Positions 38,396 to 39,359 of a stretch of 39,359 bases of DNA are shown here, one piece after another. Origin of the DNA: a virus. The position numbers and the translations under genes are program-made. The stretch's first letter is position 1. Each line of letters opens with the position of its first letter. Below the pieces are notes generated by a model. The model saw only the letters and a list, made by a program, of their open reading frames with translations, did no database searches and was not told where the DNA came from. The stretch is from IMG/VR virus record IMGVR_UViG_3300033146_000471, positions 1 through 39,359 of that record. One strand, written 5' to 3'.

Positions 38396-38479
38396 AAGAA
38401 ATGAAGATGAGTTACAGCAAAAAATTACGCTACCAAACTTTTACTTTGACTTAGCGGACAAAGGCTCATCTGTTTTCTT
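38396..38479 (+). ncRNA. Cassette 0: conserved flanking RNA element around a small Lys-loop hairpin
   Basis: AAGAAA (38396-38401) pairs with TTTCTT (38474-38479). An internal loop TGA (38402-38404) faces GT (38472-38473). AGATGAG (38405-38411) pairs with CTCATCT (38465-38471). CAGCAA follows at 38415-38420 and ACAAAGG stands before the right arm. The same elements flank the permuted tRNA-Pro and Asn cassettes. Here the inside holds only CGCTA/TAGCG (38428-38432 with 38452-38456) with a 19-base loop that can form CAAA-CTTTTAC-TTTG, a hairpin whose loop has U33 and UUU in anticodon position. No T arm. Function unknown. Confidence 0.6.
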
Positions 38480-38488
38480 TTTATATAT

Positions 38489-38571
38489 GGAAGGTTGGAC
38501 AATGGTTGTCAAGCAGTCTTGAAAACTGTCGCCCTTAAGGGTTGTAGGTTCGAATCCTACACCTTCCGCCA
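38489..38571 (+). tRNA. tRNA-Ser (anticodon UGA), canonical, CCA encoded
   Basis: Acceptor GGAAGGT (38489-38495) pairs with ACCTTCC, discriminator G, encoded CCA at 38569-38571. D stem GAC/GTC. Anticodon stem GCAGT/ACTGT (38513-38517 with 38525-38529) with loop CTTGAAA, anticodon TGA at 38520-38522. A long variable arm (CCCTTAAGGG) fits Ser. T arm TGTAG with GTTCGAAT. It reads UCA and UCG or similar Ser codons frequent in AT-rich genes. Confidence 0.95.
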
Positions 38572-38579
38572 TTTATTAT

Positions 38580-38658
38580 GGGGTTATAGTTTGATGGCTA
38601 AAACGCTGCACGGATGCATCTTTAAGCAGAAACAGAGGTTCGATTCCTCTTAACCCCA
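38580..38658 (+). tRNA. tRNA with an enlarged, 16-base anticodon loop (identity unclear)
   Basis: Acceptor GGGGTTA/TAACCCC is perfect, D arm GTTT-GATGGCTA-AAAC, variable loop AAAC and T arm AGAGG-TTCGATT-CCTCT are canonical. No CCA is encoded (A then CAT). Between D and variable parts only CTGC/GCAG (38606-38609 with 38626-38629) can pair, leaving a 16-base loop (38610-38625) instead of 7. The loop ends in CTTTAA, which looks like the 3' side of a Lys-type loop. It may hold a small insertion that is removed, or the gene may be decayed. Identity cannot be assigned. Confidence 0.7.
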
Positions 38659-38683
38659 CATAATAAAAAATATAAAATAACTC

Positions 38684-38712
38684 TTGACTTTTAAGTTGAA
38701 TATAGTTATATT
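38684..38712 (+). promoter_or_regulatory. Promoter of RNA cassette A
   Basis: TTGACT (38684-38689), 17 bases, TATATT (38707-38712). Confidence 0.85.
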
Positions 38713-38718
38713 ATATGT

Positions 38719-38729
38719 GTTCTTTGAAA
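38719..38729 (+). promoter_or_regulatory. boxA-like leader element of cassette A
   Basis: GTTCTTTGAAA, at the expected transcript start. Closest of the three copies to rRNA boxA elements. Confidence 0.45.
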
Positions 38730-38962
38730 TATATTTCTCGGTGATATTGGAGTATGAGTGGTGTAGTCACTAATTCTCGTAATGTAGCATATTTATTGTT
38801 CTTCTAATTTGGATAGGAAATCCCCACGCAAGGGGAGAATGATGGTTCGATTCCATCACAATATATAGATGTGAAATAAGGAATAACGACCACCACTTAC
38901 GACCATACAGCACACGAATAGTCGTAGTTTGTGTGTAAACAATGTCACCAAGAAATATATTT
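38727..38962 (+). ncRNA. Cassette A: structured RNA with tRNA-like T arm and a pseudoknot, bounded by an 18-base inverted repeat
   Basis: Arms 38727-38744 and 38945-38962 are inverse-complementary over 18 bases with one mismatch. Inside are a T arm GATGG-TTCGATT-CCATC (38841-38857) and ACAATAT (38858-38864), which can pair with ATATTGG (38744-38750) as an acceptor-like stem. An arm TTCTA-ATTTGGA-TAGGA (38802-38818) looks like an anticodon arm with UUG (Gln), followed by a long variable-type hairpin TCCCC/GGGGA. But 51 bases stand where a D arm should be. Downstream, ACGAC/GTCGT and CACAC/GTGTG interleave as a pseudoknot. It could be a tRNA with an insertion or another tRNA-like RNA. Confidence 0.45.
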
Positions 38963-38973
38963 TAAAATAACTC

Positions 38974-39002
38974 TTGACGTTTAAGTCAAATTTAGTTATA
39001 TT
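38974..39002 (+). promoter_or_regulatory. Promoter of the last tRNA cassettes
   Basis: TTGACG (38974-38979), 17 bases, TATATT (38997-39002). Drives cassette 2, the permuted tRNA-Pro and the tRNA-Asn cassette. Confidence 0.85.
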
Positions 39003-39007
39003 ATATA

Positions 39008-39018
39008 GGTCTTTGAAA
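39008..39018 (+). promoter_or_regulatory. boxA-like leader element
   Basis: GGTCTTTGAAA directly at the transcript start, as in the two other cassette promoters. Confidence 0.4.
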
Positions 39019-39029
39019 TTTTGATGTTT

Positions 39030-39133
39030 GTAGATATGTTCAGGTAGAATAGTGTAAAAGGTGGCACACTTGCTGAGAGAGAATTATTGGCGAGAGGGAG
39101 GAGTTCGAATCTCCAACTGATGAACATATCTAC
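39030..39133 (+). ncRNA. Cassette 2: tRNA-like RNA with a 13-base outer stem and a 16-base anticodon-type loop
   Basis: GTAGATATGTTCA (39030-39042) pairs perfectly with 39121-39133. Inside, in normal order, stand a D-type arm GTGT-AAAAGGTG-GCAC (39052-39067), a stem CTTGC/GCGAG (39069-39073 with 39090-39094) with a 16-base loop, a 4-base variable part, and a T arm with TTCGAAT (39104-39110, four base pairs). There is no clear 7-base acceptor stem; 9 and 6 unpaired bases stand between the elbow and the outer stem. No anticodon can be assigned. It looks like a tRNA derivative. Confidence 0.45.
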
Positions 39134-39137
39134 TTTT

Positions 39138-39282
39138 TAAAGTTCTACTGAAGACCATTTGCAGCAATAGTAAATTATCTTTGGGAGATCGGGATACAGG
39201 TTCGAATCCTGTGCGATCCTATTGTAGGGTGGCTGGTGTAATCTGGTTAGCACACGTATAACAAGGTCTGTGTAGAACTTTA
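39138..39282 (+). ncRNA. Flanking RNA element of the permuted tRNA-Pro cassette
   Basis: TAAAGTTCTAC (39138-39148) pairs with 39272-39282 (11 base pairs). The internal loop TGA (39149-39151) faces GT (39270-39271), then AGACC (39152-39156) pairs with GGTCT (39265-39269). CAGCAATAG (39162-39170) lies exactly 10 bases after TGA, and ACAAGG (39261-39266) is on the right. Same elements as in cassettes at 38396 and 39302. The stems bring the two ends of the permuted tRNA together. Confidence 0.75.
39175..39253 (+). tRNA. Circularly permuted tRNA-Pro (anticodon UGG)
   Basis: The order is: anticodon arm TTATC-TTTGGGA-GATCG (39175-39191, anticodon TGG at 39182-39184, with G37 as usual for Pro), variable GGAT, T arm ACAGG-TTCGAAT-CCTGT (39196-39212), 3' acceptor strand GCGATCC (39213-39219), a 7-base linker, 5' acceptor strand GGGTGGC (39227-39233), U8 and G9, then D arm GTGT-AATCTGGTTA-GCAC (39236-39253) with A14, GG and A21 in place. 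Acceptor strands pair 6 of 7 (one G-G). All segment lengths are canonical once reordered. The anticodon stem has one mismatch. No CCA encoded. Confidence 0.75.
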
Positions 39283-39301
39283 AAAGGTAGATACAAGGTA
39301 T

Positions 39302-39359
39302 TGAAGAAGCATTACAGCAATAGATTATTCGACTGTTAATCGAGTGAGTATAGGTTCGA
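39302..39359 (+). tRNA. tRNA-Asn (anticodon GUU) starting with its 3' half, cut by the window end
   Basis: TGA (39302), AGAAGC and CAGCAATAG (39315-39323) are the same left flank as in the Pro cassette. After four bases comes the anticodon arm TTCGA-CTGTTAA-TCGAG (39328-39344, anticodon GTT at 39335-39337), a 5-base variable part and the T arm start ATAGG-TTCGA. No acceptor or D arm stands upstream of the anticodon arm, so the 5' half should lie beyond 39359 if it is permuted as in Pro. Confidence 0.7.

Follow-up and report, generated by a model that had tools for sequence, protein, structure and literature searches.

Permuted tRNA genes, in which the 3′ part of the tRNA is encoded ahead of its 5′ part, are listed in a review as 34 genes from six algae and one archaeon, with none in bacteria or phages (PMC3978253). 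In those of Cyanidioschyzon merolae, green algae, and Thermofilum pendens, the junction often lies near the anticodon arm, a circular intermediate opened at the acceptor linker has been proposed (PMC3978253), and use is made of a bulge-helix-bulge (BHB) motif and the tRNA-splicing endonuclease. Here, we analyzed a stretch of viral DNA of 39,359 nucleotides (nt) (IMG/VR record IMGVR_UViG_3300033146_000471; hereafter the window, in whose coordinates positions are given unless another source is named), in which a small RNA element frames tRNA pieces. The order is likewise permuted, the junction likewise lies near the anticodon arm, and we propose a similar circular intermediate, whereas the locus belongs to phages of bacteria and carries a hairpin followed by CAGCAA in place of the BHB motif. 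The element is probably a previously undescribed class of small tRNA intron, with natural permuted intron-exon genes in the window's lineage, that would be removed by cleavage and ligation. At the level of sequence, this interpretation is supported by a conserved and covarying structure, by the permuted order, by anticodon arms that are restored exactly, and by plain as well as permuted genes that share the same intron. To our knowledge, the tRNA introns found so far in bacteria and phages are group I or II ribozymes only.

Across the window, exact copies of the motif TGAAGA-N7-CAGCAA number three (at 38402, 39149, and 39302), compared with 0.01 expected; no shuffle reached this count. Copy 1 has an outer stem of 6 bp (AAGAAA with TTTCTT, 38396-38401 with 38474-38479) and an inner stem of 9 bp (AGATGAGTT with GGCTCATCT); copy 2 has an outer stem of 22 bp (39127-39148 with 39272-39293) and an inner stem of 5 bp (AGACC, 39152-39156, with GGTCT, 39265-39269), and the local fold at 39130-39300 is much more stable than its shuffles (z=-5.3). 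Thus, the spacing of the motif, as well as the outer stem with GT opposite the TGA in both complete copies, are as the initial annotation had described them, whereas the inner stem measures differ from the 5, 6, or 7 pairs given there. The succession of three bases, four bases, and a 5-base stem that it had reported after CAGCAA is not kept in relatives, and ACAA(A)GG is present in the two complete window copies but not across the wider family. As for cargo, copy 2 holds a complete permuted tRNA-Pro, whose acceptor strands GGGTGGC and GCGATCC form 6 of 7 pairs; taking out the element and joining the ends gives CG/ATC-TTTGGGA-GATCG, a perfect anticodon arm (slashes mark exon borders throughout). 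Copy 3, truncated by the window end, holds the 3′ part of another permuted tRNA (TTCGA-CTGTTAA-TCGAG, whose loop carries the Asn anticodon GTT, followed by the beginning of a T arm), the 5′ part lying beyond the window. The cargo of copy 1 (38421-38462) is a hairpin, CAAA-CTTTTAC-TTTG, within a helix of CGCTA and TAGCG; it resembles an anticodon arm (4 bp, Lys-like loop), has neither T arm nor acceptor, and is homologous to the cargo L051-8698 (ACAAA-CTTATAA-TTTGT).

Relatives of the element were found beyond the window, both in ~10 contigs of uncultured phages and in phages that have been cultured, namely KVP40, nt-1, and further Vibrio phages, as well as Cronobacter phage S13. IMG/VR scans located copies in L051 (7 closed and 1 cut), the 224-kb phage G001 (L109/L281), G004 (L130/L161/L282), G002 (L153/L283), and G003 (L114/L284), mostly within tRNA clusters, and 2.48 Mb of reversed sequence gave 0 matches. 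Most of the ~90 matches of a first 15-base pattern scan were judged to be due to chance, as were three pattern matches in bacterial genomes, because none of the latter had an outer stem or tRNA cargo. A protein-based search for relatives of the window near its tRNA cluster found none, and the DNA polymerase of the window phage is only 33% identical to cyanophage homologues. A generalized element search of L119 and L189 yielded 64 matches versus 3 in reversed controls, with copies lacking TGA and the outer stem being frequent; the densest array seen lies on the minus strand of L189 (1454-2125), where six copies with differing cargos stand head to tail within <700 bases. The TGA and the outer stem are traits of the window's lineage, not of the whole family.

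The hairpin and CAGCAA also occur in plain-order tRNA genes. In KVP40, S13, and others, an insert of ~40-55 nt within tRNAs is the same element, unpermuted, with further intron cases in Vibrio phages D482, D479, D525, phi-ST2, and nt-1. In L119 and L127, the core likewise lies inside tRNA genes of normal order, indicating that the family core is the hairpin with CAGCAA at a fixed distance, i.e., an intron. The KVP40 genes annotated as tRNA-Pseudo-3/4/5 are tRNAs interrupted by the element: Pseudo-3 without it becomes a perfect tRNA-Asn, and ARAGORN calls the joined Pseudo-4 and Pseudo-5 as Tyr(GTA) and Ala(TGC), with loop position 33 or the junction less certain. A tRNA-Pro of KVP40 that had escaped annotation has exons ..CACACG/ATC-ATAGGGA-GATCG, i.e., a split identical to that of the permuted tRNA-Pro in the window (CG/ATC..GATCG). 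KVP40 also has an arm-only copy at 176663-176722, and S13 has two intron tRNAs adjacent to a permuted gene (132961-133097) with an encoded ACCA end. The long outer stems around cassettes (6-23 bp), with an internal loop near the inner stem, could suggest an ordinary RNase III-type processing stalk that merely frees tRNAs from a long transcript; however, the outer stem is missing in KVP40-type introns and in the L119/L189 copies, and the permutation, the intron form, and the conserved CAGCAA would remain unexplained, so that this already disfavored explanation is very improbable.

To assess pairing, the partner was picked from the inner stem alone and the outer stem ignored: among 31 exact motif copies from six related contigs, 29 had enough sequence, and 27 of these showed 6/6 outer pairs, compared with 1% of random positions. 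In a formal covariation analysis of 30 aligned copies, which had been gathered with a filter requiring part of the tested pairs (the 27/29 outer-pair result being the unbiased check), 98.7% of pair cells were standard, 12 of 13 pairs had changed on both sides, doubly changed cells numbered 121 versus 32 in shuffles, and the covariation score was 0.88 versus 0.20 (0/500 shuffles). Sliding the pairing partner by 1-3 columns abolished the signal. Similarly, 13 intron hairpins from cultured phages (KVP40, S13, and Vibrio phages), the loop of which is mostly GNNA, covary (26 doubly changed cells versus 9; 0/500 shuffles). The initial annotation had taken covariation in the window as a sign of an RNA structure under selection, and both the formal score and the unbiased pairing check agree with it.

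We then consider the products that joining would give. In 29 permuted or intron-bearing genes, with flanks and exons set by hand, the 5′ and 3′ parts were combined into an anticodon arm at every pair of cuts that gives 22-23 nt. All 5 anticodon pairs together with T33 and a purine at 37 were obtained for 11 of the 29, compared with 0.21 expected from shuffled flanks (P about 2e-17). ARAGORN called 17 hand-joined products with the expected isotype, their junctions also having been chosen by the analyst (a source of bias), and called neither of the two uncut forms tested. Splits coincide between plain and permuted genes: tRNA-Pro is divided between positions 28 and 29 both in KVP40 (plain) and in the window (permuted), and tRNA-Gly(TCC) between 29 and 30 in S13 (plain, CTT/CC..GGAAG) and in G001 (permuted, ACG/GC..GCCGT), with a compensatory change across the intron in the Gly exons (CTT..AAG versus ACG..CGT). 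The inferred excision points lie at the anticodon stem or loop; relative to the element, they are ~5-17 nt past CAGCAA on one side and 5-16 nt ahead of the inner stem's 3′ strand on the other. Exon 1 ends in G at 10 of 12 junctions. A detector of permuted order, which looks for a T arm followed by an acceptor strand of 7 nt, a short linker, a strand pairing with the first, and a D arm, gave 27 matches in 150 kb of carrier loci, an upper count because some of them bridge adjacent ordinary tRNAs. Other viral loci (2.74 Mb) gave 8, and the corresponding reversed controls gave 0 and 9; three of these eight loci (L106, L119, and L189) turned out to be carriers with the same core. Plain genes encode ACCA at their 3′ ends, as do the permuted genes in S13 and L119-3026.

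One alternative is that these genes are relics, i.e., tRNA genes in decay that were invaded by a mobile hairpin and give no product. Existing annotation labels the KVP40 genes as pseudo, the phi-pp2 paper treats such genes as low-scoring pseudo-forms and notes Ala, Gln, and Tyr anticodons as missing (PMC3468402), and some cargos are indeed fragmentary. In contrast, compensatory changes maintain the pairing of hairpin and exon stems across genera, many Vibrio relatives have the intron genes at 94-99% identity, more distant ones retain them too, and the joined products are full tRNAs. We consider it rather improbable that the genes are relics.

For the intron reading, the following pathway may be envisaged. 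Where uninterrupted, the proposed intron is ~40-55 nt long, consists of a 7-10-bp hairpin whose 3′ strand begins 10 nt before the conserved CAGCAA, and sits within the anticodon arm, either in its 5′ strand or in its loop. The phage lineage of the window has this hairpin opened, with the 3′ half of the intron (TGA-stem-CAGCAA) ahead of the tRNA 3′ part, the 5′ half (stem-GT) behind the tRNA 5′ part, and an extra outer stem closing the permuted gene. The hairpin would bring both strands of the anticodon arm together; cutting of the precursor at the two borders of the intron would then be followed by ligation of the exons, with plain genes yielding a linear tRNA and permuted genes a circle. The acceptor linker would be opened by RNase P and a 3′ nuclease, with CCA either encoded or added; the gene for a CCA-adding enzyme in the window (Table 1) is of interest because the permuted tRNA-Pro encodes no CCA. 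Removal of the element, the cutter, the ligase, and the circular intermediate are all inferred. The initial annotation had linked the element to joining of tRNA ends, which is borne out by the permuted cargo at 39149, by the canonical anticodon arm of its rejoined ends, and by the plain introns elsewhere. The cleavage it had placed at the TGA/GT loop is not supported, since cuts there would yield no tRNA; relatives carry a GNNA hairpin loop or other bases at this site, and the tRNA sequence implies cuts at the anticodon arm instead.

Ligases that could act in this pathway are present in several carriers. Two large carrier phages have complete RtcB genes (Table 1), and KVP40 and G006 encode Rnl1. 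RtcB or Rnl1 was found in 4 of 5 carrier records >150 kb versus 1 of 18 other large contigs (RtcB 0/18, Rnl1 1/18), a post hoc comparison on a small sample. Carriers G011 (132 kb) and G022 (109 kb) have neither, and a search for T4 Rnl1 in G000-G005 found none. RtcB as an obligatory partner was ruled out, several carriers being without it and some having Rnl1 instead. In the T4 anticodon-nuclease/tRNA-repair system (PrrC, Pnkp, Rnl1), a host defense breaks ordinary tRNAs at the anticodon loop; phage RNA ligases of the Rnl1 or RtcB type could supply the joining step here, although breaks there are made by the defense, whereas the interruption here is encoded. Alternatively, the ~45-nt core might itself be a ribozyme that cuts and joins without protein. 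Its strictly conserved bases outside the helices are few (TGA or GNNA loop, CAGCAA, and GT) but fixed in helical spacing, no common cutting protein has emerged, and one large carrier is without the ligase families searched. However, the core is very small for a self-splicing intron, its inferred borders stand at variable distances from the conserved bases with no conserved border nucleotides, and ligase genes are over-represented in carriers; we regard self-splicing as improbable.

Table 1. Locations of the element, its tRNA cargos, and related genes in the window and in carrier phages (borders and junctions as inferred from sequence)
Feature	Location	Strand	Description
Element copy 1, arm-only type	38396..38479	+	TGA 38402-38404, CAGCAA 38415-38420, GT 38472-38473
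Element copy 2, complete permuted tRNA cargo	39127..39293	+	TGA 39149-39151, CAGCAA 39162-39167, GT 39270-39271
Permuted tRNA-Pro(TGG), 3′ part	39177..39219	+	ATC-TTTGGGA-GATCG, variable loop, T arm ACAGG-TTCGAAT-CCTGT, acceptor 3′ strand GCGATCC
Linker TATTGTA between acceptor strands	39220..39226	+	Cut needed to free tRNA ends; CCA not encoded
Permuted tRNA-Pro, 5′ part	39227..39256	+	Acceptor 5′ strand GGGTGGC, D arm, A26, C27 G28; inferred junction G28/A29
Element copy 3, cut by window end	39302..39359	+	TGA 39302-39304, CAGCAA 39315-39320
tRNA nucleotidyltransferase (CCA-adding enzyme) gene	26009..27346	+	PHROG 2244, E=7.5e-76
RtcB RNA ligase, complete gene	G001:114404-115531		Carrier phage of 224 kb
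RtcB RNA ligase, complete gene	G010:161459-162586		Carrier phage of 238 kb
Plain intron gene	L119/L127		GGAGTCG..GCATAG/CATAGCAAAAAAC-CAATTCT-GTCTGA-AGAATTG-TTC-CAGCAA-CACTATAGCTCT/AACT-CTGTAAA-AGTTC..CGACTCC-ACCA
Pseudo-3	KVP40		AGTCGGG-TA-GCTCAGTGGTAGAGC-ACG/AAGAA-TGATACT-GACA-AGTATCG-CTC-CAGCAC-TCCTTCAAT/TGC-CTGTTAA-GCACG..CCCGACT-ACCA
Pseudo-3 (tRNA-Asn), inferred exon junction	KVP40		...GAGCACG to TGCCTGTTAA
tRNA-Pro, inferred exon junction	KVP40		...GCACACG to ATCATAGGG

Several observations weigh against the intron interpretation: (i) 18 of the 29 genes in the joining test gave no canonical arm (arm missing, position 33 not T, or one pair short); (ii) no splice-site ruler is evident because the distance from CAGCAA to the border varies, and a search for a fixed ruler counted from CAGCAA found none; (iii) the carrier G020 (195 kb) has neither RtcB nor Rnl1; (iv) arm-only cassettes, merely joined, give no tRNA; and (v) a phage with framed isoacceptors often has ordinary tRNAs for them as well (L119, L051, G001, L289), and such duplication favors a role beyond simple tRNA supply.

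The arm-only cassettes include Lys CTTTTAA (L189), Thr CTTGTAA (L119), and Ile-like CTTATAA (L051) loops. Under a strict definition of the arm (5x7 hairpin, at least 4 bp, T33/R37/A38), 8 of 22 short cargos qualified compared with 1.4 expected (P=2.7e-5); the arm of window copy 1, with C at position 38, falls outside it. Other cassettes hold a body without anticodon arm (L051-8792, L282-407, L282-2490) or a D-anticodon-T unit without acceptor (L284-4614, L119-2350), and arm-only and body-only cassettes adjoin in L051 and L189. Such cassettes could be decoys against tRNA-targeting defenses, pieces for joining in trans, or remnants. If decoys, the element would never be spliced, and its stable stem would display tRNA pieces, e.g., to occupy host anticodon nucleases or other tRNA-targeting defenses. 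The frequency of arm-only cassettes, including those with canonical Lys and Thr loops, and the many framed pieces that duplicate ordinary tRNAs are consistent with this explanation, which is nevertheless unlikely, as it does not account for a split anticodon stem that is rebuilt to 5 bp only by removal of the element, for CCA ends, for plain introns in otherwise complete tRNAs, or for the matching plain and permuted splits in Pro and Gly. A bolder proposal, and in our view a doubtful one, is that a ~45-nt self-splicing intron smaller than any known operates here and that these phages assemble tRNAs from permuted and modular pieces, arm cassettes and arm-less bodies (sometimes neighbors in an array) being joined in trans.

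With regard to other described systems, BHB splicing was rejected, the central helix (4-bp helix of exon 1 and intron 3′ end beside 3-nt bulges) being present at 0 of 12 junctions. We know of no bacteria that possess the tRNA-splicing endonuclease (EndA/Sen). Group I introns of bacterial tRNAs and T4-like phages likewise interrupt tRNA anticodon arms or phage genes, and engineered permuted forms make circles; however, they exceed 200 nt, compared with 40-55 nt here, and their 5′ exon usually ends in U (U-G pair) rather than in G. An Rfam scan of the window, KVP40, and carrier loci gave only tRNA families above threshold and no described ribozyme, and neither group I nor group II introns were matched. 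On the minus strand of L354 (KVP40), two cargos of ~200-235 nt (10634-10848 and 12876-13124) are framed by the same element (AG..CAGCAA..CTGT) and share GATAGTC and AAAGACGA blocks; the long KVP40 cargos appear group-I-like by eye but have no Rfam match. KVP40 has been reported to be without group I introns (PMC3468402). T4 rnaC/rnaD (AF158101 70908-71171) are also tRNA-like small stable RNAs in a phage tRNA cluster, rnaC with a T arm; neither the CAGCAA element nor permuted order was seen in them. Two-piece tmRNA has a permuted gene order, with acceptor strands joined by a linker that is removed. The cassettes here are likewise permuted, but have no tag reading frame and mostly carry class I tRNAs with ordinary anticodon arms; ARAGORN reported no tmRNA in the examined loci.

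Further tRNA-like features were observed at these loci. At 39120-39148 of the window, two stems share sequence and are thus mutually exclusive: the outer one of the 39149 cassette (22 bp) and the 13-bp stem of the cassette before it (GTAGATATGTTCA with TGAACATATCTAC), which is overlapped in its 3′ strand. Promoter-like TTGAC-17-TATATT repeats followed by TTTGAAAT lie at 38346-38394, 38680-38730, 38975-39015, and 23220-23267; as they precede several cassettes, these may be transcribed separately. Two tRNA-like genes (38580-38658 and ~39038-39117) have anticodon loops of ~16 nt (CTGC-ACGGATGCATCTTTAA-GCAG and CTTGC-TGAGAGAGAATTATTG-GCGAG, respectively) and are possibly interrupted or degenerate tRNAs. 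At 38722-38968, a tRNA-like core (38793-38865, 32 bits to RF00005) lies inside a very stable nested structure (z=-7.7, outer stem AAATATATTTCT with AGAAATATATTT), in which the CAGCAA element was not recognized. Elsewhere, the minus strand of L281 carries a permuted tRNA without frame (~7100-6920), with an encoded ..ATCCCCCACCA end and a ~35-nt linker before GGGGGAT. Tracts of L281 (minus strand, 5334-5160) and L282 (3690-3865) hold tRNA-like genes with insertions of ~100-130 nt near the variable region, conserved between the two phages.

Our survey of the open-access literature (subscription papers and preprints being outside its scope) found no description of phage permuted tRNAs or of an intron composed of a hairpin and CAGCAA. 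Each remaining explanation (a new intron class, a ribozyme, or a decoy array) falls outside known classes and is of a kind that the surveyed papers do not describe. The KVP40 copies had been dismissed as broken genes under the label 'pseudo'. If the intron interpretation is true, the element would constitute a third, compact class of phage tRNA intron, would revise the tRNA annotation of large phages, and would give their RtcB or Rnl1 ligases a role; as tRNA-Pro and tRNA-Gly each exist in a plain and a permuted version, they would then provide a testable system for the origin of permuted genes.

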